Below, piece by piece: positions 3,491 through 23,558 of a stretch of 23,558 nt of DNA (within the stretch, counting starts at the first letter, position 1; each line of letters begins with the position of its first letter). The stretch covers positions 1 through 23,558 of IMG/VR virus record IMGVR_UViG_3300049846_000165. The stretch is one strand, 5' to 3'. The notes below the pieces were generated by a model. It was not told the DNA's origin, did no database searches, and was given only the letters and a program-made list of their open reading frames with translations. The position numbers and the translations under genes were made by a program. Origin of the DNA: a virus.

Positions 3491-4461
3491 CAGATCACTC
3501 CTTGGTCGATGGTTTGGATTTCGTGGACAGAGTTGGCAGCAACGCCATTACCGGCAACCAGTTGGCCGGTTGGCGGGGCGACCCCACCAGTCAGCACCCA
3601 CTGAATACTTGTCCCGTCGTCGTATCTCAGTCGCATCTCCTTCCGGTTGGTGTCGTACCAAAGCCCGTAGGGGGTGGGTTCAGGCGGGAAGGCCGTGCCG
3701 AAGTACACGTTCGGACCAGGCGGGCCCTGGGGGCCGGTGTTGGCGAGCGTCACCCAGGCGCCGGCATCGGCATCCCAGAACCTCTGCACCAGGTCGTCGG
3801 TGTCGAACCACTGCTTCCCGGGCTGCTCCCTCTCGGGCATCCCATACGGGGGTGGAGTGGCGTCCTGGACGTAGGGATCCAACCGTGCGCTGATGGCGTC
3901 GGTGGTGGCGACGAACTTGTCCTTGCCGTCCTTGGGCCAATCACCCAGCGTCTGGTCGAGCTTGGCGATGGTTTGCGCCAGTTCAGACGGTGTGTCCTTG
4001 TTGGGGTCCTTGCCGCGAGGCAGGTTGTTCCAGAAGGCCAGGCTGACCGCAGGGTTCCCGCCACCCGGGATTGAACCCAGGCCATTGATCAGCAGCGCCA
4101 GGGCGTCGTGGTGTTCCTGGATCAGGTACAGCCACTGCCTGTCCGACTCGTTCAGGTCGTCCTGGATGATGTAGCTGCCGTCCTTCCACTGGACGATCTG
4201 ATCGTCTTCTGGGGTGATCCTTCTGACGGTGAGCACTTCCGCCGGCTTGGCGTTGGTGCCAGTCACGGCGGCCTGCGGGGCCACCGTCAGCTTGACCTGA
4301 GTGCCGCTGGTCCAGACGAAGTCAGTGCCGTCCTTCAGCTCCTTGTTGTCCAGGAAGACATGGACGTGCGCCTTCTCCAGGTAGGGGAAAGGGACGCTGA
4401 AATCCTTGGCGACACCGTCCCCCGTGTACTGCCGGTAGCTGTATGGGACGGGGATAAACAT
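3490..4461 (-). CDS. T7 gp17-like tail fibre, N-terminal virion-anchoring type
   Basis: This 323-residue protein carries the T7 tail-fibre N-terminal domain in residues 1-125: YSYRQYTGDGVAKDFSVPFP at the start, then LTVRRITPEDDQIVQWKDGS and the helix NESDRQWLYLIQEHHDAL. In T7 this domain docks the fibre on the gp11/gp12 tail. After a helical linker it has two short modules of the W(F/Y)DT type (about 214-240 and 265-290) separated by a mini collagen-like stretch GPQGPPGP at 243-250. It lacks the long shaft and C-terminal tip of T7 gp17 (553 aa), so it probably works as an adaptor for the two following proteins. The ATG at 4461 is the only sensible start. A 65-bp gap with a promoter-like element precedes it. 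The stop overlaps the next gene by one base. Confidence 0.93.
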   Translation of the reverse strand: MFIPVPYSYRQYTGDGVAKDFSVPFPYLEKAHVHVFLDNKELKDGTDFVWTSGTQVKLTVAPQAAVTGTNAKPAEVLTVRRITPEDDQIVQWKDGSYIIQDDLNESDRQWLYLIQEHHDALALLINGLGSIPGGGNPAVSLAFWNNLPRGKDPNKDTPSELAQTIAKLDQTLGDWPKDGKDKFVATTDAISARLDPYVQDATPPPYGMPEREQPGKQWFDTDDLVQRFWDADAGAWVTLANTGPQGPPGPNVYFGTAFPPEPTPYGLWYDTNRKEMRLRYDDGTSIQWVLTGGVAPPTGQLVAGNGVAANSVHEIQTIDQGVI

Positions 4462-4526: not shown

Positions 4527-7500
4527 TCAGCGGCCCAGCTGCAGCAGTGGCGACAGGGCGTCGTATCGCTCTTGCATCCGCTGGGTCTGGCCCCGCACCA
4601 GCCCCTTGTATCGCTGCATGAAGCCGCGGGACACCTCGTCCTCGCCAGTCGCCAGCGCGATCTGGGCCCGCTTGTCGTAGTAGTCGATGATGTCCTGCAC
4701 CGGCCGGTACAGCTCGCTGCCAGCCCGCCCCCTGGCGGTCATCCCTGGGTTCTTCCGCCGGTCAGGGCTTTCGGGGTCGGCGGCCAGCAGCTGCTGGTAT
4801 CGCTGGTCGTTCTTCAGTGCCCGCAGCGCCCCCATCAGGTTGCTGCCGTTCACGTAGCTGGTGATGTCCCAGCTGGGGGCCCGGCCCAGCACGGCCTCGA
4901 CATCGGCCCCGCCGGTCAGCTCACGCATGGAGGCCCGGTACTTCCGCTCCTCCTCGGGAAGCATGGTCATCTCCAGTGACTTGCCACCCTCGTTGGCGCT
5001 GGGCACCCGCAGCTTGCCGTCCGCGTTGGGCTTGGCCGTGAAGCCGGTCTCCTCCAACCACTTCGCCAGCGGATCGTTCGGCAGCACCACTGGCATGTAG
5101 GGGATCAGCGCCTCGGCCGGCACCCCGAACGGACGGGTCACCTTCCACCCGATCCAGTCGTAGTCCTCGGGCTGCCGCACGATCTGGTTCAGGCCCGGGT
5201 ACTGGCGGGCCATGCGCTCGCTGGCGTCCTGGATCAAGGTGAGGATCGGATGCACCGCGGCGTACAGCGGGTCGGCCTCGATTGCCTTCAGCTCAGCGGG
5301 ACTCAGTGGGCGCCGCTTGGCTCGCTGCATGGATGGGTCCCGCCCCATCTCGGCAAGGTTCCCAGCCAAGCCAGACAGTGGGCCCAGGCCGCCGCCCTGC
5401 GCTGCCAGCACATCAGCAATGTCGACACGATCAGGCTCAGTGAAGGCCGTCAGCATCGTGGTGACAGACCGCAGGCTCGACTTGTTCTCCAGCATCCGGG
5501 AGAACGCAACGACCAGACCCTGCAGTGCTTGGTCGTACTGCCCCCGGCTGATGCCATCCACGGCGACCAGCTGCCACAGGTCGGCGTACAGGCCCAGCAT
5601 GTCCATCGGGTCGATGCCACCCGTGCGGAACCGCGCAGCGTCGATCTTCATGAACCCCAGGTTCCAGCTGTAGGGCGTGTGGTTCCGGCGCCACAGGGCC
5701 CACTCGCTCCTGTCGCGGGGACCGCCGGACTCGAAGGTGCCGTTGGCGATGGCGACACCGGCCAGGGTGAAGAAGGCCGTCGAGACCACAATCTCAGCCT
5801 TGGTCTGGGCCAGCTTCGCGGGCGTGACAGCAGACGGTTCCAGCTTCTGCAGCTTCAGCGCAGCGCCCACCAGGCTGCGGTCCATCGTCCACAGCAGGCT
5901 GTTCATCGGGGTCTTGAAGAACGGCAGCTCCCACGCCACCAGGGCGTTCTGCCGGGCCAGGCCAAGACCCTGAATCACCGGGTCCTTGATGGTCTGGGTG
6001 AAGGTGATGTCAGCCGAACGCTGGACACCCATCGTCCCCAGGTCTTCGACATCGTTGGTGACACGGGGCATCCCGTGCAGCTCGTTGAAGGCGATCAGCC
6101 GCAGCGTCTCGTCGTCGATATTTGGGTCGGCGGTGAGACCCTTGGCGAAGCGGAACTGCTTCAGCTCCTCGTCGCTCATGAAGCCCGAGTACAGCGCCTT
6201 GCTGGCGGCCTCATCGGCACGGCGGGCGATCACCTCCCCAGGGGTCCCCTTGGCGGCACCCTCGACCTCGCGGATGAACGCCTCATGGTTGGTCTTCCAG
6301 GCGAAGGCCATCGTCCGCACTGCCTCGTCACCAGCGCCAAGCAGACGGAAGGCAGGCATGTACCCACCGTTGTCGAAGAAGTCCTTCAACTGCGGGTTGA
6401 TTTCCTGGCCGAACACCTTCATCGCCTGCTCAAGGCCGTTGCCGGCAGCCGGGAACAGGAACTTCCCCAGCACCTTGCTGAAGCTGGCGTTCAGCACGTT
6501 CATCAACGCCACGCCATGGGTGGCGATGTTCGGGTGCTGCAGCGGATTGGTCAGCACCTCCAGCCCCCTCAGCAGGGCGTCGTCGACGAACTGGGCCTCC
6601 TTCTCCAGCAGCTCAGAGGCGGTGTCGAAGGTGTTCTCGATCGAGTTGCCGATGGTCGCCTTGCCGCTGCCCAGGAAGGTCAGGGCATTGCGGGTCGCTA
6701 TCGCCGTGGCATCCACTGCGGCCCGGCTGGCGAACGCTGCGGCCTTCATCCCCTCGTAGGCGCCGACGCGGAAGCTGCCAGACACGATGTCCTCGGCCCC
6801 GTGCCAGATGCCCACCAGGACACCACTGGCTGGGTTGCGGCCAGCCCAGCTCTTGACCGACGTGAGCATGTTCGCCCGCCGGAAGTTGTTGAGCAGCGAC
6901 AGCTGGGCCATGAACCCATTGGCGTTGATGCTCAGCTCTGACATCGGGGCAGTCCGGGCTGCCGCGGCCAGGCGCTTCAGCCTCAGCGGATCGCCCTTCT
7001 CCACGTCCTCCAGCACCTGCTTCAGCAGGGTGTCACCCTTGATGTCAGCCAGGGTCAGTTGACTCCACTCATCGTTGAAGTCGATGAGCATCTCGCCCTT
7101 GTTCGCAATGTCGAAGCGCATGGCCCGCAACGACTGGCCGATTTTCCTGCGAACGACCGCATCCAGGTTCTCGAAGTAGCTGGCCCACGTGGCAGCCGCA
7201 CCGATCCGAGCACGGGTCTCCGGTGACACGGCCTTGAGCATCTCCAGCTCGTTGGCCGCGACCTCCAGCACATTGGCAAACTGGCTGGCCGAATCCCAGC
7301 GGGCTTGGGCCAGACGCACCACGCTCTTGGGCAGGTCCTTGATGGCCTTGAACTTCCTGGCGAACTCACCCGCAAGCCCAGACACCGGCACAGGGCCCAG
7401 CCGGGAGACGGCCTGCAGCGCCTGGATGGCCTTCTCCTCGGTGAACTTCACCATCAGCTTCTGGCCTTCCGGCGTGGCCCGCCGCTGGATGCCCAGCAGT

Positions 7501-13800: not shown

Positions 13801-14023
13801 GCAGCCTTTCGCTGAACGGCGCCAAGGAAGCAGTGAACTGCGCAAACTCATTGGGGCTTTCCACATTGCCGGCACTGGCTCGCTGGATCGCATTGATGCC
13901 AGACGGTGCGCCCAGCATCTCGGGCCTGGCCGCACCAGCAACGTTCTGCTGTCCGGGCTGGATGAACGCATCAATCGGCCTGGCCGTTGGGCGAATCTCG
14001 CCAAAGGGAAGACGCTCAGCCAT
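10859..14023 (-). CDS. gp15-like internal virion protein with C-terminal cell-wall-degrading domains
   Basis: This protein has 1054 residues with ATG at 14023, against 747 for T7 gp15. Residues 1 to about 800 are helical and rich in Ala and Gln. Around residues 885-915 lies GHYDGRTFDVP, in which H900 and D907 have the H-x6-D spacing of the M15/VanY D,D-carboxypeptidase metal site (SxHxxGxAxD); a third ligand is not obvious. A glycine linker (931-937) leads to a soluble lytic transglycosylase-like domain: LAYLETRIR with candidate catalytic E950, then GRGYFQ at 964-969, ending AIKAGRYDEADQLLRGTWPS and LPGG, as in phage muramidase-type enzymes. It likely opens peptidoglycan during DNA entry. A GTG three bases upstream is possible, but the TGATG overlap used at many junctions here favours the ATG. 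Confidence 0.85.
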   Translation of the reverse strand: MAERLPFGEIRPTARPIDAFIQPGQQNVAGAARPEMLGAPSGINAIQRASAGNVESPNEFAQFTASLAPFSERLQTLVGQGMVSYAQGKIEQGYYTELKNQQARATLSLQLQQEQGAANAAGTIGALQKVDPAGAQLLKEANPWKRIGQERARAQLAGAEIDNVLASDASQNAGYLARLAPGSPELMQRKATLTQGVLSRYGLTGDEPSTQFYVTPKLNQAWDAYTAQHNKLHSAAVYQQTVLDTSALGVSGIQDAVQNGFTMPNGQVLKPGTPEWAAEGHKRLTGLLDGQLRLLAPDDRAKAMENLRKDFMAFSGAPYVWDLITGIRVGDSSIPYEKRPTWGAAQASELLEDRQKAANRRLEEANNDQSFKKLDAQNAWNAGPGRFAPGTPEATEAILKFRQEQLGKGFLGVDDFIVGATKDREALQATLFPSDPREAANFSTAVAALPANVWTDDPNALKNIQDAAWQIASKESNPEARNRKYAELMGDVEKARKAAGQAAKDVVPGAKTAALEDLDSPEVRAIRKAQNKGTGGGLGASIFQNAANGVSVAQAVAATGDKKLTAAAGQLERLYQAAMQNKINAWQASHPTQVLSPEARLNLIAEAKQEVRKSDQYAAIMTPLLGRAPAGTAAAVSASVLEGGRYATTEKGQTFGQVPSQQLRGVSRQNFQNLPDSTVKGYAIRPVIDGPAMRDELKRVGRGDGVSQQMNELAKRAGISPYRYLLEQLKFYPALDDQDGSLRQMLQEKAGRQRTAQSISRAQLPSALPSAGGTGGLAMLPTGYNPLGPGSWLMSMIAPPAQAIQSFIYPRGGGGGMGGGNYVATTGFGYSADRKTQTLHGIKGRPGYDANHGVGNDHVHHGADDAQTAMALAKYLKGKGWPITEFKPWGSVGRHQDPGHYDGRTFDVPVATKDHQRVIDDINAFYSGRRGGSGGGGNWQGYMKRLAYLETRIRNIPNAEGSPGRGYFQAFPAFSSEAIAASGGIDPRDSDYGRAAQASWAWIQRHNKRAAAAIKAGRYDEADQLLRGTWPSLPGGSQAQSDQVQREARRYLGG

Positions 14024-14859
14024 CACCTACCTCCTGTGCCAGGGCCAACGGAACTGTTGGGAGTCTTGAGTGCATTGAGCTGGCCCTGCATTGAGAAGGC
14101 GGAGCTGACACCCCCAAGAAGTGCAGATCCAACATTCAGCCAAGCGGACCCACCGCCAGGGGCGCCACCCGTCATGGTCGGACCAGCCGGCTGAATCAAG
14201 GTCGGCAGCGGCGCGAACGGGGCAATCGGATCCATGTACGGCTGCTGCTCGTAGAACTGCTGGGACTGCCAACGGCTCAGGTACTGCGCCAGCTGGCCGG
14301 CTTGCTCACGTCCGTACTGCCGAGTCCTCAGGCCCTGGTTGATGGCCTGCAGCGTCTCGTAGTCGCCCTGCTGGCGGGCGTAGTCGTTGACCAGGCGATC
14401 AACGCTGCGACCCTCCATCCCCATCGCCTGGACCGACGCACGGCCCTGCAGCGCCCTCCACTGGTACTGCTGCAAGGCGACAGCCTCCTGCATGGAGGTT
14501 TCTGCGTACGCCTGACTGATCGCTTCGCTGTCCCGCAGGTAGGCAGATCCAGCCGCGGCCCTGGTGTCGCGCACCGTCTCCGCTTGCCGGATCGACTTCA
14601 GCAGCTCGACATTGCGCAGCGAGTTGGTGTAGGCCAACTGCTGGTTGTAGTTGACCGTCTCGGCGTAGTACCTGTACTGACTGTTCAGGTCGGTGGCTTT
14701 GGCGTTGAAGTTGGCCTGCCACTTGGCGAACGTGTTGTTGGCGCTCTGCAGCGCCTTCTGGTTCAGGTAGTCCTGCTGCTGTGCCTTGTTGCCAGCGATG
14801 CCCTGGATCAGCCCAAGTCCAGCACTGAGGCCACCAAAGGCCAGTGAAAGCGGATCCAT
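14023..14859 (-). CDS. gp14-like internal virion (core) protein
   Basis: This 278-residue protein begins with a Gly/Ala-rich hydrophobic segment (LSLAFGGLSAGLGLIQGIAG, residues 5-24), followed by long helices with many Gln, Ala, Tyr and Ser (for example TDLNSQYRYYAETVNYNQQL). It ends in a Pro/Gly-rich, low-complexity tail. T7 gp14 (196 aa) is the core protein that inserts in the outer membrane as the ejection channel; this one is longer. Assignment rests on position (after gp13, before gp15), the N-terminal hydrophobic helix and composition. It overlaps both neighbours by one base (TGATG), consistent with coupled translation of a stoichiometric core set. The function in cyanophage-type particles is inferred. 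Confidence 0.85.
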   Translation of the reverse strand: MDPLSLAFGGLSAGLGLIQGIAGNKAQQQDYLNQKALQSANNTFAKWQANFNAKATDLNSQYRYYAETVNYNQQLAYTNSLRNVELLKSIRQAETVRDTRAAAGSAYLRDSEAISQAYAETSMQEAVALQQYQWRALQGRASVQAMGMEGRSVDRLVNDYARQQGDYETLQAINQGLRTRQYGREQAGQLAQYLSRWQSQQFYEQQPYMDPIAPFAPLPTLIQPAGPTMTGGAPGGGSAWLNVGSALLGGVSSAFSMQGQLNALKTPNSSVGPGTGGR

Positions 14860-15305
14860 CAGGAAGCCCTCCAGAACGGGCAGAACAGTGCGGCGCTGGG
14901 GCCGAATGGTTCGGCATGTTCAACCGTGAACCCAAGATGCCGCAACCAACGGATGGATTGCTGGTTGCGGGCATAGACGTGGTTCCCGATGGGGCCGCCC
15001 ACCACCTTCAGACAGTGCTCAACCCATTCTCTGCCGCAGACGATCAGCTCCCAGCGGTTGCGCTTGGTCTCGGTCAGGCGTTCGGTGCCCAGCAGCCAGA
15101 TCCGGTCACCGCTCACCCCCGTCATCGCCAGGGGCTCACCGTCATCTGACTCGATGCAGCGACACACCTCGCTGTCCGAGATGCTGTTCAGCACCGCCTC
15201 GTAGGGCTTCAGACGGTGGCTCAGCCACACCTCAATCTCGTCATCCCGCCGGAGGTTGCCGGCGATGTAGCAGCCACGGGCATCGGTTGGATCCGCCCAC
15301 CTCAT
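14859..15305 (-). CDS. gp13-like internal virion protein with acetyltransferase-like fold
   Basis: This 148-residue protein starts at ATG 15305, whose ATGA overlaps the gp12 stop. A start further upstream at 15401 would bury 96 bases in gp12 and is unlikely. The N-terminus (MRWADPTDARGCYIAGNLRR) and the block GEPLAMTGVSGDRIWLLGTE match the layout of T7 gp13 (GxPLAIGGxxGDxxWFVTS). The C-terminal HVYARNQQSIRWLRHLGF resembles the GNAT-type helix/strand (N...I.FL...GF) that T7 gp13 also keeps. In T7, gp13 is needed for correct assembly of the internal core. Acetyl-CoA binding is not evident, so an enzymatic role should not be assumed. It is followed directly by the gp14-like gene through a one-base overlap. 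Confidence 0.87.
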   Translation of the reverse strand: MRWADPTDARGCYIAGNLRRDDEIEVWLSHRLKPYEAVLNSISDSEVCRCIESDDGEPLAMTGVSGDRIWLLGTERLTETKRNRWELIVCGREWVEHCLKVVGGPIGNHVYARNQQSIRWLRHLGFTVEHAEPFGPSAALFCPFWRAS

Positions 15306-17803
15306 TGCATGGACCTCGCTTTGCTTGCTGTCATCCCCACCCACTCGCAGGTACTGAACTTGCAGGGGTGGGGCGTGTCGTTGTGGATTTCGACCATGCA
15401 CCGCTCACCGCGGCTCATGACCGGGATGTTGAACACCCCCTCGTGGTACCGAGCGGTGTCTGGGTCGTAGGTGGCGGGACTGCCAATCACCGACCCCCTG
15501 GTGGCGGCCACGGCGCCGTCGTACGTGTAGAGGAACGGCTCGCGGTGCTCAGGCATCACCTTCACCCGGAAGAAGCCCGTCTCGTGGTAGCGGAGCTTGG
15601 CCTGGCGGATCTGCGTGCGGACGGCGTTCGCCGCGGCCTTGCCGCCGCCGATGTCACGCATCACCTTGAACCGGCTGAAGCGGTAGACGAAGTTGAACGC
15701 CTCGCCCGCGAAGACGTCAGCCTGCGACCAGTCACCCCGGGCGGTGATGGTGTTGCCGGTGTCGGTGGCGCCCAGTCGCACCCCGCCGACCTTGGCGCCA
15801 GGGACGTAGCTGTAGGCCGACCACAGCTCAGTCCGTGCCTTGGCCGCATACGGCAGCGTCCAGGTGGTCTTGCGGGTCACCGGGTCATAGACCCCCTTGG
15901 CCATCCGCATCGCCGGCTGAGTGGCCGTGGTGGTGCTCACCCGGCGGTCCAGCAGCAACGGGTACGGGCCGCCGACCACCTCAGCCATCCGGTCCATCAC
16001 CGGGATCACCTCCAGGAACACCTCATCGCCGTACCGCATCAGGCAGTACAGGTTCTCCCGGATGCAGATGACCTGGAGGACCTCATCGGCACCGTTGAAC
16101 TCCCAGTGGCTCCAGCTGGACTGGGCTCGCTCGGCGCCCTGGCCGGTGTTGCGGAAGAAATACTTGTAGACGTAGATCTTGTCCTGGTAGCCGGCCTTCT
16201 TGCTGATGGCGAACATCGAGTTGCCCGCATCGTTGACCGTCATCTTGAAGATGCCGGATGGCACGTAGGCCGAGACATACCCCGTCAAGTCCTGGGCATC
16301 AGCTGTCAGGGCCGTGCCTGAACCGCGGACGCTGAACTCCCGGAACTGCGACCACTGCCCATTGGCCTGGCAGAAGATGATCGCCCCGCCGGCCTGCTGG
16401 GGTCTGACATTCACATCCACGTCGAACTGGGTGAGCACCGTGATCTGCGCCGTAGAGGGCGTCAGGACGGTCTCAGCAGCGTTGAACCTGAACTGGTACT
16501 GGCTGCTGAACAGGATCAGCTCGTCCTGGTACGGCACCGCGTAGCGCAACACCGACACCCGGTTGTTGCTGGCCACCACGTCGATCGGGTCGGTGTCGAG
16601 CACCGTGGTGACCGTCTCGGGGAAGAACTCAAAGAAGTCCCGCACCCGGCTGAGGATCACGTTCTCGTCAGACAGGAACCCCAGTCGGCTCTTGTAGATG
16701 AAGACATCGTTGATCGGGTTGCCCACGAAGCTGGGGTCCGGCGCCGTGTCGTAGTCGCCGGTCGTCCGCTGCCCCCAGGCCGGCACCGTCACCGTCCCGA
16801 CCGTGGTGCCGTTGGCCGGACCGAACCAGAACGTCCCATCCGGCAGCCGGATCAGGACGTGCGGCATCGTCGCCGCGGCCAGCTTGTACTCCACGCCGGG
16901 GCTCACCGTCTCAGCCCAGACGCCTTCCCCGAAGCTGCCGGACTTGGGTCTGAACTCGACGTAGTAGCCGTCGAAGTTGTTGCCCGGATCCCCGACGATC
17001 TCCACCTGGTAGCCCTTGGGGGCGATGGTGGGGAGCTCGGTGAACGCCTGCACCCGCCCCAAGATCGCCGTGATGTCGGCGTTGGCCCTGGCGTCGCTGG
17101 CCGCCACCGTGATCGGGCTGGCGGACTGCAGCCACAGCACTGACCCCGACCTGGTGATGGTCACGCCGGTCAGGGCCGCCAGGCCGGTCTTGATCTGCTC
17201 TGCAATCTCGGCGGAGCTGATCCGGTTCTCAGTCACGGTCGTGCCGGTGCTGACCACCGGGGCCACCGCCGTGGTCACGTCCACCGTGGTGCCGTTGACC
17301 GAGACCGTGTACTTCTGCCCGTAGTTGGCGGCCTTCACCCAGATCAACGCCTCATGCGGCGATGGCCTGGCGGTGACCGGCGCCACCGCCGGGTCCATCG
17401 CCGTGGGCGTGAGCGTGTTGAGGATGAAGGTGTAGTCCGCGATCGTGACGGCCCGGATCTGCTGCCTGGCATCCGTCACCGTCGACAGGTAGCCGTAGCC
17501 CCCAGGGGCCGCCACGGTGCGCTCGACACCCTTCAGGTCGAACACCCGGATGGCCGTCTTGGTGATGACCGCCAGGTACTCCTCAGTGCTGTCCCGCAGG
17601 ATCGTGTGGATGAAGGCATCCCCAAATGGGGTAGGACTCACCCTGGCGAGGGTGTGGCTGCTGTCCCGCTTGCGCAGACCCTCGGCAATGCTCGACATGC
17701 CGTTGATCTGCACCTCGCCCTGGCTGGGATCCCGCTGCGGGTCGGGCTGCTGGCTGATGCCCTGGATCAGATTCGGGATCGTGTAGGAGACGAGCTGGGC
17801 CAT
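15302..17803 (-). CDS. Tail tubular protein B (T7 gp12-like nozzle)
   Basis: This 833-residue protein, close to T7 gp12 (794 aa), begins MAQLVSYTIPNLIQGISQQP, then GEVQINGMSSIAEGLRKRDS. This is the family's diagnostic start (GISQQP...G....N......GL.KR). The long middle is beta-rich with DYTFILNTLTPTAMDP and VFIYKSRLGFLSDENVILSR, both recognisable gp12 landmarks. It ends IHNDTPHPCKFSTCEWVGM followed by a short basic tail, as in relatives. The protein forms the hexameric nozzle at the end of the tail tube and seals DNA in the head. The start overlaps the gp11 stop by one base (TGATG) and the stop overlaps gp13 by four bases (ATGA). No truncation or frameshift is apparent. Confidence 0.96.
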   Translation of the reverse strand: MAQLVSYTIPNLIQGISQQPDPQRDPSQGEVQINGMSSIAEGLRKRDSSHTLARVSPTPFGDAFIHTILRDSTEEYLAVITKTAIRVFDLKGVERTVAAPGGYGYLSTVTDARQQIRAVTIADYTFILNTLTPTAMDPAVAPVTARPSPHEALIWVKAANYGQKYTVSVNGTTVDVTTAVAPVVSTGTTVTENRISSAEIAEQIKTGLAALTGVTITRSGSVLWLQSASPITVAASDARANADITAILGRVQAFTELPTIAPKGYQVEIVGDPGNNFDGYYVEFRPKSGSFGEGVWAETVSPGVEYKLAAATMPHVLIRLPDGTFWFGPANGTTVGTVTVPAWGQRTTGDYDTAPDPSFVGNPINDVFIYKSRLGFLSDENVILSRVRDFFEFFPETVTTVLDTDPIDVVASNNRVSVLRYAVPYQDELILFSSQYQFRFNAAETVLTPSTAQITVLTQFDVDVNVRPQQAGGAIIFCQANGQWSQFREFSVRGSGTALTADAQDLTGYVSAYVPSGIFKMTVNDAGNSMFAISKKAGYQDKIYVYKYFFRNTGQGAERAQSSWSHWEFNGADEVLQVICIRENLYCLMRYGDEVFLEVIPVMDRMAEVVGGPYPLLLDRRVSTTTATQPAMRMAKGVYDPVTRKTTWTLPYAAKARTELWSAYSYVPGAKVGGVRLGATDTGNTITARGDWSQADVFAGEAFNFVYRFSRFKVMRDIGGGKAAANAVRTQIRQAKLRYHETGFFRVKVMPEHREPFLYTYDGAVAATRGSVIGSPATYDPDTARYHEGVFNIPVMSRGERCMVEIHNDTPHPCKFSTCEWVGMTASKARSMQ

Positions 17804-19745: not shown

Positions 19746-20582
19746 CTAGAAGACATCAGATCGCGCCAACAGGTCCTGCACCTTCTGGCGATACGCCTCA
19801 TCGACGTCATAGATGCGCTGCCCCCGCTCATTCCGCTTGTTCATCGCATCGAGGACCTGCTGCTGGCTCTCGAACTTCGCCACGGCTGGCGCGTTTCCGC
19901 CCCCGTAGAGCTTCGGCTCGACCACGGCATCAGGTGCGGCCCGCCGGGCCTGGATGGCCTTCAGAGCCCACTCGATCGCCTGCCGGTTGCCGCTGTCGAC
20001 CACGGCGTTGTAGTCGGCCAGCTCCTTGGCCTGGAGGTTCTGCGCTGCCCACTGGCTCAGCTGCTGGAAGGCGTCATCGCCGCCCACCATGGCCTTCAGT
20101 TCCGCGGCATCGGTGTCAGACAGCCCAGCCGCTGCAGGGGCCTCCTGGGCGCCGCCCTGGGCCTTGCTGACGTAGTTTTCGACCACCTGGCGGGAGACAC
20201 CGAAGGTCTCGGCCAGGGCGTCGTAGTGCTCGCTGATGTCCTGGCCGCTGTCGGCCTTCCACATCACGTCCGCCAGGTCGACGCCCTTCTCGGCCAACGC
20301 CTGCACCGGGGCCTCGCCGTAGAGCTCCACGGCCTGCTCAGGCGTGTAGCCGGTGGTCTCCGGCTGGTCGTTCGCAGGAGGCTCCTGACGCTGGCCCAGC
20401 TTGCGCTCCAGCTCCTGGTACGACTTCGCCAGGTCCTCGACCGTCTTGAACTTGCCGGCCAGCAGTTCAGGCTGCTGCTCGGCCTCCTGCTCACGGGCGA
20501 ACTCCTCGACCAGGGATTCCTGGCCGGGGGCCACCATGCCGTCGATGCCCTCGGGGGTGGTCAGCTGGGGGGTGGAAGTCAT
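19746..20582 (-). CDS. Capsid scaffolding (assembly) protein, T7 gp9-like
   Basis: This 278-residue acidic protein is rich in Glu, Gln and Ala. It starts with a disordered acidic region, then the family phrase AGKFKTVEDLAKSYQELERK (residues 42-61). A middle region holds QVVENYVSKAQGG and several short helices. The C-terminus YDVDEAYRQKVQDLLARSD (about 258-276) is the usual capsid-binding helix. It directs procapsid assembly around the portal and leaves before DNA packaging finishes. Its ATG overlaps the portal stop by four bases (ATGA), so it is translationally coupled to the portal, its assembly partner. The length is near T7 gp9 (307 aa). Confidence 0.94.
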   Translation of the reverse strand: MTSTPQLTTPEGIDGMVAPGQESLVEEFAREQEAEQQPELLAGKFKTVEDLAKSYQELERKLGQRQEPPANDQPETTGYTPEQAVELYGEAPVQALAEKGVDLADVMWKADSGQDISEHYDALAETFGVSRQVVENYVSKAQGGAQEAPAAAGLSDTDAAELKAMVGGDDAFQQLSQWAAQNLQAKELADYNAVVDSGNRQAIEWALKAIQARRAAPDAVVEPKLYGGGNAPAVAKFESQQQVLDAMNKRNERGQRIYDVDEAYRQKVQDLLARSDVF

Positions 20583-22192
20583 TCGGGTTGTTCGGGTTGT
20601 TGTTCAGCTGCCATCTGCATCTGCTGCGTGGTGGCAGCAGCAGTGGCCAGCTTCTGGGGATCAGTCATGGGTGAGGCCATGGCTTGCTGGGCCATGGCCA
20701 TCTGCTGTTGCTGCTGTTGTTCAGCAGCCAGCTCCTCCTGGCTGCGGATCAGACCAAGGACATCAATGCCCATCGAGTAGGCCAGGCGCTTGATCAGCTC
20801 CGATGCGTTCACATACTGCGCCAGGCCCTCGGGGCCGATGGTCTGACCCAGCGTGGTGGTGAACCGCACCAGCTGTTCCAGGTCGTTGCCGCGGCCCACG
20901 GCGGCCAGGCCGACCGTCATCACTGGCTTCACCAGGTCCTTCGGCATCTTGGGCACCTTGCCCTCGCGGGTCAGGATGTCCAGCTTGCGGGAGACATAGG
21001 GCACCTGGAACTCGGTCGTCAGGATCGAGTAGATGGAACCCAGGGAGTTCTCGATCTGCAGGGCCTGCAGCCTCACCTCCTCGGCAGTCGTCCTCTCTGA
21101 ATCGCGGACATCGGCAAGCATGAAGGCTTGGCTGAGACGGGCTTCGATCTGCTGCTTGCCTTGCATCGCAACAGCCAGATCAGTGCTCTTTTGCACCTGA
21201 AGCGCCAGCACATCATTTGGATCACCAGTGACAAACGAGCCATTCGGGGCCTTGGCAAGGTCGGCAGCTTTCGTGACGCCGCTGGGCTTCACCAGGAACA
21301 GCACCTTGCTGCTCGCCAGTGACCCCTCAGCGATGGCCTGGCACAACGCTTCGACGGTCTGCAGGTCCGCGATGGCCGCGGCCTCCACATACCCCACCCC
21401 GTAGGGGGCGCCGTCGACACGGGTCATGCGCAGCGGCAGCCAGGGGCTCACATCCAGCGGGGCCTTGCCCTGGCTGCCGGGGATCACCTTGCCCTTCACC
21501 TCCTGGTGCCACTCGACCCGCTTCCCCTTCCACTGGACGTAGGTGTAAATGCGGACGGTCTTGGCGTCCTCCCGCCTGGGGATCGGGTCCGGGTCATCCA
21601 GGATCCCCTTCAGCTCCTCGTCCTCCTCCTTCAGCAGGTCCTGCACCGCCTGGGGGAGGACATGGATCGCCAGTTCTTCGCACGTGACCACCTCCAGGGG
21701 GTTGCCCATGGGGTCACGGCTGCAGACGTACCGATTCAGGTGGTACACCCGCAGACCATCACTGCCGATGTACAGCAGGGCGTTGCCTGTGACGACCAGG
21801 TGCAGCAGCGCCTCGTGGAACACCACCCGGTCGTTGCTGGCCTCGATCTCCCGCAGCACCAGCCGCTCGATCTTGCTCAGTGCCTCCTCGAAGCTGGACT
21901 TCTCCTCCGGGCCGACACCTTGCTTCGCCAGGGCCGCCTCATCGAGGGAGAAGCGGAAGAACTGCTGCGTGGGTGGCAGCAACGCCAGCAGCATCCGGCT
22001 AGCCAGGTTCAGCACCCCACGGGCGCCGATGCCATTCCACGGCACCGGGTAGGACTCCTGGTGGTTCGGGGTGGGTTCATTGCTGGTCGGCACCAGGTAC
22101 GGGATCGTCAGGCGAGCTGATGCCCGCGCACGATCCAGGGCGTAGTTCCTGGGGCCCTCCAGGTTGCGGTAGCGGGATTCAGCGGTGGCCAT
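20579..22192 (-). CDS. Portal / head-to-tail connector protein (T7 gp8-like)
   Basis: This 537-residue protein is the same size as T7 gp8 (536 aa). The signature PVPWNGIGARGVLNLASRML continues into LALLPP at residues 50-74. Other landmarks are LHLVVTGNALLYIG, the tunnel region with YGVGYVEAAAIADLQTVEAL, and SERTTAEEVRLQALQIENSL. The last ~55 residues are a Gln/Met/Ala-rich low-complexity tail. It forms the dodecameric vertex for DNA packaging and the tail. It begins two bases after the stop of the third MCMGG gene and ends in an ATGA overlap with scaffold. Codons for residues about 317-369 end in A or T far more often than the rest, a local patch described in the findings. Confidence 0.97.
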   Translation of the reverse strand: MATAESRYRNLEGPRNYALDRARASARLTIPYLVPTSNEPTPNHQESYPVPWNGIGARGVLNLASRMLLALLPPTQQFFRFSLDEAALAKQGVGPEEKSSFEEALSKIERLVLREIEASNDRVVFHEALLHLVVTGNALLYIGSDGLRVYHLNRYVCSRDPMGNPLEVVTCEELAIHVLPQAVQDLLKEEDEELKGILDDPDPIPRREDAKTVRIYTYVQWKGKRVEWHQEVKGKVIPGSQGKAPLDVSPWLPLRMTRVDGAPYGVGYVEAAAIADLQTVEALCQAIAEGSLASSKVLFLVKPSGVTKAADLAKAPNGSFVTGDPNDVLALQVQKSTDLAVAMQGKQQIEARLSQAFMLADVRDSERTTAEEVRLQALQIENSLGSIYSILTTEFQVPYVSRKLDILTREGKVPKMPKDLVKPVMTVGLAAVGRGNDLEQLVRFTTTLGQTIGPEGLAQYVNASELIKRLAYSMGIDVLGLIRSQEELAAEQQQQQQMAMAQQAMASPMTDPQKLATAAATTQQMQMAAEQQPEQPE

Positions 22193-22194
22193 CG

Positions 22195-22716
22195 TCAGAT
22201 CGCAAGGTTGGAACCAGCGCCTGCGCCCTGGCTGGTGGAGCCGAATCGAAGGGAGGCAGAGGTCGACCGGGCGCGACCACGGGTCCGCTGGCTGCTCGAG
22301 ATCTGCGCAGTCGGTGCTGCAGTGGCCCCGGCGTCACCCAGGATCCGCAGCGAGGCAGACACAGCAGACCCCGCGGCACGGATGCCCGCCAGACGGGTCT
22401 CCTGCTCGGCCTGGAGGTCAGCCATCTGCTTGGTCTGCTCTGCCTGGGCGGCCTGCTGCTGGGCCGCCAGTGTCTGCTGCTCCTTCTGCTGAGACACCAG
22501 CAGCTGCTGTCGCTGCTGCGCCTGGGCGTCCAGGCCAGCCTGCGCCCTGGCCCGCTCGTCGTACACCGCTTGCACCTGTGCGTCGGCACCGGCCTTCATC
22601 GCAGGGCCAAGGCCGAACGGGGTCTTGCTGTACGCCTCCTTGTTGAACGCCAGCTGGCGTTGCAGGTCAGCGTCAGACCGCTGGTTCAGGGGGATAGACC
22701 CACCACCCATGCACAT
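22195..22716 (-). CDS. MCMGG-family small protein C (173 aa), unknown function
   Basis: This 173-residue protein starts MCMGGGSIPLNQRSDADLQR. Residues about 40-110 form a Gln/Ala-rich coiled coil (QAQQRQQLLVSQQKEQQTLA). The tail is basic (RTRGRARS) and ends SASLRFGSTSQGAGAGSNLA plus Ile. The start and end resemble those of the next two genes upstream; a second SASLRILG motif lies about 36 residues earlier, suggesting an internal duplication of the terminal module. No membrane segment or enzyme motif is seen. Proteins with a short MC(M/F)GGG start near the portal gene are familiar from other podoviruses, as I recall, but have no assigned role. It lies two bases before the portal gene, so a head or connector-linked virion role is a reasonable guess. 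Confidence 0.8.
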   Translation of the reverse strand: MCMGGGSIPLNQRSDADLQRQLAFNKEAYSKTPFGLGPAMKAGADAQVQAVYDERARAQAGLDAQAQQRQQLLVSQQKEQQTLAAQQQAAQAEQTKQMADLQAEQETRLAGIRAAGSAVSASLRILGDAGATAAPTAQISSSQRTRGRARSTSASLRFGSTSQGAGAGSNLAI

Positions 22717-22728
22717 GATCAGACCCCG
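22703..22728 (-). repeat. Start-region repeat, copy 3 (gene C)
   Basis: On the minus strand CGGGGTCTGATC is followed by ATGTGCATGGGTGG. It is about 401 bp from copy 2. The TGA within TCTGATC is the stop codon of gene B. Confidence 0.8.
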
Positions 22729-23117
22729 ATGTTGAGACCAGCCCCAGCAGTGCTGGGAGTGCCGGCCAGGTTGATGCGCAAGTTGCTCGATGGCTTCTCC
22801 TTCGGCTTCACCGCTGCCGTGGTCTCAGCTGCAGCCGGTGGTGCGCTCTGCGATGCGGTGACCGCATAGGCCGAGTTCTGCTGGCTGGCAGAGGCCGCGG
22901 CGGCTGATGCCGTATCGGCTGCCAGTTGAGACCGCAGATCAGTCGTCTGCTGGTTGGCGGCATCAATCTGCTGCTGGATCTGCGCCTGGAACGCAGCGGT
23001 CTGACTGCCGACCTGCGACCGGAAGCTGTCCAGCGCCGCCTGGCTGGCAGCGACATCCGCATCGCTCGGGCCCTGGTACACGACCTTCGGGGCCTTCGGT
23101 GCTCCGCCCATGCACAT
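22719..23117 (-). CDS. MCMGG-family small protein B (132 aa), unknown function
   Basis: This 132-residue protein starts MCMGGAPKAPKVVYQGPSDA, has a central Gln/Ala-rich helix (AFQAQIQQQIDAANQQTTDL), an Ala/Ser-rich stretch, and a basic linker into SSNLRINLAGTPSTAGAGLN plus IGV. The middle differs from genes A and C; the two ends are shared. A good Shine-Dalgarno-like AGGGGG sits eight bases before the first ATG, supporting MCMGG rather than the internal ATG two codons later. Its TGA lies two bases before the ATG of gene C. It is probably a small virion or assembly protein; no function can be assigned from sequence. Confidence 0.78.
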   Translation of the reverse strand: MCMGGAPKAPKVVYQGPSDADVAASQAALDSFRSQVGSQTAAFQAQIQQQIDAANQQTTDLRSQLAADTASAAAASASQQNSAYAVTASQSAPPAAAETTAAVKPKEKPSSNLRINLAGTPSTAGAGLNIGV

Positions 23118-23130
23118 GATCAGATCCCCC
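23104..23130 (-). repeat. Start-region repeat, copy 2 (gene B)
   Basis: On the minus strand GGGGGATCTGATC is followed by ATGTGCATGGGCGG. It is about 405 bp from copy 1 and includes the ribosome-binding region of gene B. Confidence 0.8.
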
Positions 23131-23522
23131 TAGGTGATGTTGAGGCCGGTGCCTGGCGCGGCGCCGACCGTGGCCTTGCCTTCAATCCGCAGGGCGCTCT
23201 TGCCCTTCGCGCCGGCGCCAGTCCGGTTGCGACCAACGACCGGGGCCTCAGCGTTCTTCTCCGGTGGTGGCGTACCGATCAGCTGCGCCATCCGCATCGC
23301 CTGCGCACTGGTCAGTTCCGCCGCCTGACGCTTCGCCTGGTTCGATGCCTCCAGCACTGACTGCTGATCACGCACGGCTGCCGTCAGCTGGCTTTGCAGC
23401 AGCTGCGTGCCGCTATCCATCGACTGCTCGATGGCAGACCGCTGTAGATCGAACTGCCGGTTGAAGGCGTCGTAGTTCGGGACCGTGATCGTCGCCCGAC
23501 CGCCCCCGCCACCCATGCACAT
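23130..23522 (-). CDS. MCMGG-family small protein A (130 aa), unknown function
   Basis: This 130-residue protein starts MCMGGGGGRATITVPNYDAF, has a helical, Gln/Ser-rich middle (QSMDSGTQLLQSQLTAAVRD), a Pro-rich linker, and a basic C-terminal region ending KSALRIEGKATVGAAPGTGL plus NIT. It shares both termini with genes B and C. A GGAGG sequence lies seven bases before the first ATG. It is the first complete gene of the late region in this window and is followed after 12 bp by gene B. The function is unknown. The cysteine at position 2 with a glycine run is the only distinctive residue pattern. Confidence 0.77.
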   Translation of the reverse strand: MCMGGGGGRATITVPNYDAFNRQFDLQRSAIEQSMDSGTQLLQSQLTAAVRDQQSVLEASNQAKRQAAELTSAQAMRMAQLIGTPPPEKNAEAPVVGRNRTGAGAKGKSALRIEGKATVGAAPGTGLNIT

Positions 23523-23534
23523 CAGAGCCCCTCC
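23509..23534 (-). repeat. Start-region repeat, copy 1 (gene A)
   Basis: On the minus strand GGAGGGGCTCTG is followed by ATGTGCATGGGTGG. The same module, GGGG(N)TCTGAT(C) plus ATGTGCATGGG(T/C)GG, occurs at 23104-23130 and 22703-22728. Conservation includes bases before the ATG, so it is a DNA-level repeat and not just a shared protein motif. This copy lacks the ATC between TCTG and ATG. Confidence 0.8.
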
Positions 23535-23558
23535 ACATCAATCGGATGCTGTTGCTGC
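23522..23558 (-). CDS. C-terminal end of an upstream gene, runs off window
   Basis: One frame reads QQQHPIDVEGL and stops with TGA at 23524-23522, overlapping the ATG of gene A by one base (TGATG), the same junction seen at most gene borders here. An alternative frame ends AATASD with TGA at 23540-23538, leaving a 15-bp gap. The first is preferred because of the packing pattern, but only about 11 residues are visible and the product cannot be named. Confidence 0.4.
   Translation of the reverse strand, partial: QQQHPIDVEGL

Follow-up and report, generated by a model that had tools for sequence, protein, structure and literature searches.

The window analyzed here, 23,558 nucleotides of viral DNA (positions 1 to 23,558 of IMG/VR record IMGVR_UViG_3300049846_000165), is a 23.6-kb fragment of a T7-like phage in which three small genes, named A, B and C, lie head to tail and occupy the gap between the portal gene and a small gene that has only its last codons in the window. 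A first-pass annotation, made from the sequence alone, had reported that these genes encode proteins of 130, 132 and 173 amino acids (aa) sharing both ends, and we found their coordinates, lengths and ends to be as it claimed (Table 1). Protein A starts MCMGGGGGRATIT and ends KGKSALRIEGKATVGAAPGTGLNIT, protein B starts MCMGGAPKAPKVV and ends KEKPSSNLRINLAGTPSTAGAGLNIGV, and protein C, the most variable of the three, starts MCMGGGSIPLNQR and ends RARSTSASLRFGSTSQGAGAGSNLAI. Common to all are an MC start and an end made up of a basic segment, LR(I/F) and a Gly-rich tail closing in GLNI or NLAI. We refer to the shared ends as the N-tag and the C-tag.

Met1 and Cys2 are invariant in all three family alignments. 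Close to the C-terminus the same holds for one L, one G-x-G and one N, and in families A and B an I stands two places after this L. The three families align with one another over their C-terminal 21-29 columns (hhalign, 96.8-97.8%, scores 64-75), while the best score of 60 column-shuffled controls was at most 22. Over the N-terminal 18 columns, too, the match exceeded every shuffle, although the shared information goes barely beyond MC-Gly. The centres, in contrast to the ends, gave no profile alignment between families (1 aligned column), and a common origin of the centres is not detectable by profile comparison.

To place these ends in a wider sample, genes upstream of each portal were read in 154 loci from two IMG/VR portal searches. 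Many of the loci are related to one another, so the counts that follow tally sequences rather than independent events. An MC start together with a looser form of the C-tag was present in 188 of 707 open reading frames (ORFs) just upstream of portals and in 0 of 2,481 control ORFs; among control ORFs on the other strand or downstream in an enlarged set (n = 4,868), 1.9% had an MC start, 0.25% had the strict C-tag and none had both. Where portals were at least 54% identical, at least one MC-starting small upstream gene was found in 80 of 80 usable loci, with both tags in at least one gene in 66 and in at least two genes in 56. Fragments that end inside the module probably explain part of the remainder. 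The tags thus recur in close relatives rather than being missing from them, and the comparison with control ORFs shows that the shared ends are real and not a product of chance.

The gene order of the module is constant among uncultured relatives, and the cultured phage S-SRP02 (host Synechococcus SR-C1) shares it. In S-SRP02, the direct orthologs of the module genes are ORF36, ORF37 and one unannotated ORF; AP013546.1 has its three orthologs (BAQ94376.1-BAQ94378.1) in the same order. Gene A orthologs lie at 3600-3992 of locus L002 and 3594-3998 of L003, and gene B has tblastn matches in AP013546.1 and S-SRP02. The gene C ortholog of S-SRP02 (L003, 4400-4969) carries no annotation in the GenBank record, and the other module orthologs are labelled hypothetical. 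Orthologs are 39-73% identical to the window protein for A, 35-66% for B and 20-48% for C, and the length of C varies from 138 to 250 aa across relatives. All three genes are under purifying selection (ratio of nonsynonymous to synonymous substitution rates, dN/dS, 0.17-0.34; 0.17-0.25 for both A and B).

The position of A, B and C, directly before the portal and beside a presumed 6.5-like gene, is that of the T7-like (Autographiviridae) virion module, in which the T7 genes up to and including the portal run 6.5-6.7-7-7.3-7.7-8. Two T7 proteins from this region, which contribute to building the tail channel and to DNA injection, resemble them. T7 gp7.3 (PF11653 VirionAssem_T7, PHROG 1320; PDB 9jyz), likewise encoded shortly before the portal, has a basic segment, a hydrophobic stretch and a Gly-rich part with G(I/L)N(I/L) at its extreme C-terminus (GGKKSLSVARSSGGGINI); unlike A, B and C, it has neither a Cys nor an MC start, its N-terminal part is lysine-rich where they have a long Q/A-rich helix, and it is a single gene where the window has three. 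T7 gp6.7 (PF17570 T7-like_gp67, PHROG 1391; PDB 9jyy, 9jyz, 9jz0) starts MCFSPKIKTPK, and thus shares the MC start and single Cys2, followed by a P/K-rich stretch; it lacks the GLNI tail. The gp7.3 profile aligned with A over 25 columns up to the C-terminal GLNI/GINI of both (hhalign, 78.7%, E = 1.7e-5), and 0 of 60 shuffles scored as high. B and C aligned with it more weakly and over fewer columns, yet again 0 of 60 shuffles reached their scores, so that the C-terminal loop of gp7.3 (basic-SLSV-RSSGGGINI) is matched strongly by A and weakly by B and C. The gp6.7 profile matched B at residues 1-13 (0 of 60 shuffles as high). Against PF11653/PHROG 1320 and PF17570/PHROG 1391, A, B and C gave no match above the curated cut-off, the S-SRP02 ortholog of A reached E = 0.041 at best against PHROG 1320, and a search of PDB sequences using profiles of A, B, C and the Pelagibacter protein returned chance matches only.

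In T7, residues 2-15 of gp6.7 encircle the portal barrel, whereas in the nozzle two gp12 subunits hold residues 84-98 of gp7.3, present in six copies, and K84/K85 contact the DNA end; both proteins are found in virions and both are ejected, gp6.7 then being located with gp14 in the nozzle (PMC11784390). Because the corresponding T7 segments are structurally resolved at the portal barrel and the nozzle, "docking tags", as the first-pass annotation had suggested, is a good reading of the ends: the C-tag aligns with the nozzle-anchored part of gp7.3, and the N-tag of B with the portal-barrel part of gp6.7. The annotation had envisaged one common partner (portal, core or capsid). The T7 precedent has two partners, the portal and the nozzle, and the nozzle was absent from that list. 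By analogy, we propose the portal as the partner of the N-tags, and the presumed nozzle, whose gene occupies the place of tail tubular protein B in S-SRP02, as the partner of the C-tags.

Table 1 Features of the A-B-C module and its candidate partners in the window.
Feature	Coordinates	Strand	Description or basis
Gene A, 130 aa	23130..23522	-	MC tag, single long helix (predicted), basic Gly-rich tail ending GLNIT
Gene B, 132 aa	22719..23117	-	MC tag and PKAPKVVYQGPS, single long helix (predicted), tail ending GLNIGV
Gene C, 173 aa	22195..22716	-	MC tag, Q/A-rich middle, tail ending NLAI
N-tag of A, residues 1-6 (MCMGGG)	23505..23522	-	Met1, Cys2 invariant across family alignment
N-tag of B, residues 1-18 (MCMGGAPKAPKVVYQGPS)	23064..23117	-	Similar to T7 gp6.7 residues 1-12
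N-tag of C, residues 1-6 (MCMGGG)	22699..22716	-	Family alignment
C-tag of A, residues 105-130	23133..23210	-	Profile alignment to T7 gp7.3 C-terminus
C-tag of B, residues 106-132	22722..22802	-	Profile alignments
C-tag of C, residues 148-173	22198..22275	-	Profile alignments
Single helix of A (predicted), residues 18-82	23277..23471	-	AlphaFold2, block pLDDT 72-90 over most
Single helix of B (predicted), residues 19-89	22851..23063	-	AlphaFold2, block pLDDT 90-95 at residues 21-70
Portal, T7 gp8 family	20579..22192	-	PF12236, E = 1.7e-67; phrog_449
Presumed nozzle (T7 gp12 place, tail tubular B)	15302..17803	-	Position between gp11-like and gp13-like genes
Presumed 6.5-like gene, last codons (...QQQHPIDVEGL), cut by window edge	23522..23557	-	Position

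Other phages carry forms of these proteins that lie between the T7 and window arrangements. Pelagibacter phages have one small protein of 66-73 aa (MC...KKKKVKKSGTSSLNTSSGLNIATN) with both tags in the same place, and Syn5 gp36 also has both (MCSAPKMP...TASLRIPLN...GGGLNIPK). Syn5 gp36, P-SSP7 YP_214200.1 and gp16 of Pelagibacter phage Ran are all products of small pre-portal genes to which no function has been assigned, and they resemble A, B and C in their MC start, Pro-rich character and basic linker; the Syn5 and Ran proteins end in a tail that contains GLNI, whereas the P-SSP7 protein has the ADLRI part only, and each phage has one short, Pro-rich gene as opposed to three in the window's clade. 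Vibrio phage ICP3 encodes single orthologs of gp6.7 (4131-4382 of locus L013; PHROG 1391, E = 1.2e-18) and gp7.3 (4825-5115; PHROG 1320, E = 5.5e-12), and its gp6.7 ortholog combines an MC start with a gp7.3-like end, ...SSLKVKL...VGANLSL. A 2026 structure preprint on phage Peru-2 describes gp6.7 and gp7.3 orthologs as not readily identifiable in Peru-2 or ICP3, and as perhaps lacking recognisable motifs (PMC13320782). It is plausible that the two tags are an old pair, split over two proteins in T7 and together on three in the window's clade. Phages of the phiKMV, Acibel007 and K1E types also have a small pre-portal gene, whose product contains a stretch of basic residues and a short end with Gly (GLQL, GINY, LGL, SLKV). 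These genes lack the MC start (L385 2099-2422, L386 2157-2432, L387 2171-2434, L012 3733-3942), and their ends are too short for us to call them homologous, although the K1E pre-portal protein matches PHROG 1320 (gp7.3) at E = 3.9e-11.

Cys2, invariant and a simple mutational target, is to us the most interesting loose end. Residue 2 is the sole Cys in 119 of 119 aligned proteins (families A, B, C, gp6.7 and Pelagibacter). Of 185 distinct proteins with the MC start and tag, 115 use TGC for this residue and 70 use TGT, and the use of both codons indicates that the constraint acts on the protein. Relatives of T7 gp7.3 have no cysteine. The gp14 protein follows the same pattern, with Cys2 as its only cysteine, in 15 T7-clade loci (L334-L348), ICP3 (L353, 2193-2777), Pelagibacter phage Ran, eight further pelagiphages (L377-L384) and P-SCSP1g (L350, 2949-3602) and, as read by eye from translations, in Syn5 (L333, 8829-9533) and P-SSP7 (GTG start). 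By contrast, Cys2 is absent from the gp14 of the window (14023-14859), S-SRP02, K1E and Lullwater, and from all 22 gp14 frames of the window's clade. This clade thus has a gp14 without Cys2, but three small MC proteins instead of one, and at least two Cys2 proteins are found in each tag-bearing phage in which both gene places were read. Cys2 could conceivably be a functional N-terminal tag common to several T7-like injection-apparatus proteins, whose thiols might pair (e.g., as disulfides after ejection into the oxidising periplasm) or serve one shared docking site, although we consider this tentative and rather doubtful; the T7 structure paper mentions neither cysteine nor a disulfide (PMC11784390).

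We used AlphaFold2, with input consisting of the family alignments from the IMG/VR loci and the window proteins only, to predict the layout of A and B. Both were alike: the first 17-18 residues are disordered, one helix follows (65 residues in A, 71 in B), and the tail is again disordered. Because the tails have a predicted local distance difference test (pLDDT) score of 50-65 and the predicted template modelling (pTM) score is 0.29-0.36, we took only the layout from these models. Helical periodicity was significant for A (3.7 residues per turn) and for neither B nor C. The middles, described in the first-pass annotation as unrelated, are indeed so at the level of sequence; nevertheless, the centres of A and B are each kept within their families and share one layout. 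This bears on the proposal that tandem duplication was followed by replacement of the centre. The homologous C-termini partly support a common origin, suggesting that A, B and C are old, diverged paralogs. Replacement, however, fits poorly with the identities of A and B to their relatives, the fixed gene order and the common layout. Since the middles are conserved inside families A and B, duplication followed by divergence suffices, and an old duplication explains the data at least as well.

With moderate confidence, we favor the reading that A, B and C are paralogs of old origin, since diverged, that belong to the gp6.7/gp7.3 type and act as minor virion proteins of the portal-tail channel. 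The group is widespread and mostly unannotated; its three-gene form with both tags on each protein is real and would be new among minor virion proteins of an already known kind. Each protein would comprise a short N-tag (MC plus Gly/Pro), a middle that in A and B is one long helix, a linker that is basic and flexible, and an LRI...GLNI C-tag. In the tail lumen, the C-tag would bind between subunits of the nozzle; the linker would hold the DNA end, and the N-tag would bind the portal or core. On adsorption, A, B and C would exit early and, with the gp14-like protein, form a lining or an extension of the channel, their long helices replacing or extending the gp14-gp6.7 channel. The virion location, the two docking partners and the ejection would all follow the T7 precedent, and the function is one that we assign from short-tag similarity and position. 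The tag pair (MC start, LRI...GLNI end) gives three hitherto uncharacterised genes a testable role and offers a motif for finding gp6.7/gp7.3-type genes, one that flags candidates in cyanophages, in pelagiphages and across a large uncultured clade.

Several points weigh against this reading. The gp7.3 matches span 11-25 columns and take their support from shuffles; profiles from Pfam, NCBIfam and PHROGs left A, B and C unrecognised, with weak matches to helical proteins set aside; and we found no mass spectrometry, structure or genetics on any member of the window's clade. Furthermore, the tags are on separate proteins in T7 and both are on all three proteins here. In the mature particle the portal barrel exterior and the nozzle lumen belong to separate compartments, so one molecule probably cannot hold both at once. 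We thus expect the N-tag to work in the head and the C-tag to work in the nozzle, through separate copies or at separate stages. The three proteins would also compete for six nozzle sites, which raises the question of how a six-site nozzle serves three proteins that share one anchor.

Long single helices with disordered, tagged ends would also suit a scaffold, and A, B and C could instead be assembly factors only, that is, chaperones or scaffolds that join portal, core proteins and nozzle through the tags as recognition peptides and stay outside the infectious particle. We regard this as possible but unlikely given three analogies from other phages: T7 gp6.7 and gp7.3 are in virions and are ejected, the small protein directly upstream of the Acinetobacter phage Acibel007 portal is annotated "structural protein", and the Peru-2 gene product at the 6.7/7.3 place is in virions at low abundance (PMC13320782). 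That the tags are short and that only the ends align could also mean that unrelated small proteins acquired like end peptides by docking to the same sites. Such convergence is improbable: A, B and C align strongly with one another in the C-tag (97-98% over 21-29 columns), the N-tag is common to all three and the genes lie side by side, so that duplication in place is simpler. Very improbable, in our view, is that the ends are sorting tags for swappable cargo, with centres delivered to the host as payloads and exchanged by recombination. Like ends around centres that cannot be aligned, and the variable length of C, would fit such exchange, but the A and B centres are conserved in ortholog groups of fixed order under purifying selection, the two have one predicted layout, and the Pfam, NCBIfam and PHROGs searches found no enzymatic or effector domain.

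The DNA around the gene starts, which the first-pass annotation had described as repeated, is indeed repeated within the window (TCTGATCATGTGCATGGG at B and C, CTCTGATGTGCATGGG at A), although the repeat is mostly a Shine-Dalgarno sequence plus a stop codon and ATG-TGC. GGAGG and TGATG stand upstream of A, and GGGG and TGATC-ATG upstream of B and C. Over 23 genomes, the 12 upstream bases were no more alike within than between genomes (permutation p = 0.95). Because of this, and because of its Shine-Dalgarno, stop and start content, we dropped the repeat as a trace of recent duplication. Residue 3, by the same comparison, was more alike within genomes (19 matches versus 12.3, p = 0.0015, relatedness not corrected), and the Met3 common to A, B and C in the window hints at homogenisation. 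Upstream of C, relatives mostly have GGAGT(C/T)TGA, in which GGAGTC forms the codons of the Gly-Val end of B. As the same bases encode Gly-Val and precede C, the GV after GLNI may persist as a ribosome-binding site for C, which may explain why B ends in GLNIGV and not GLNI. At the end of B in, for example, loci L114, L123 and L146, GGAGTC resembles a ribosome-binding site of C; the window has GGGGTC (22719-22735).

The remainder of the window follows the T7 gene order on the minus strand, with portal, scaffold, capsid and gp11-, gp12-, gp13- and gp14-like genes, and with large genes where T7 encodes its internal virion proteins. Among annotated genomes, the closest one found was that of the uncultured phage MedDCM-OCT-S37-C6 (Autographiviridae), with a portal identity of 78%. 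The stop of the presumed 6.5-like gene overlaps the start codon of A. Most relatives have a gene of 60-95 aa before the module, with a motif like AGQ.SVVRWL or IGQQEVI.YL (e.g., L029, L135, L150 and L161), which may be a relative of T7 gp6.5, a kinship suggested by position only. Similar genes also lie before the portal in Syn5, P-SSP7 and phiKMV-like phages.
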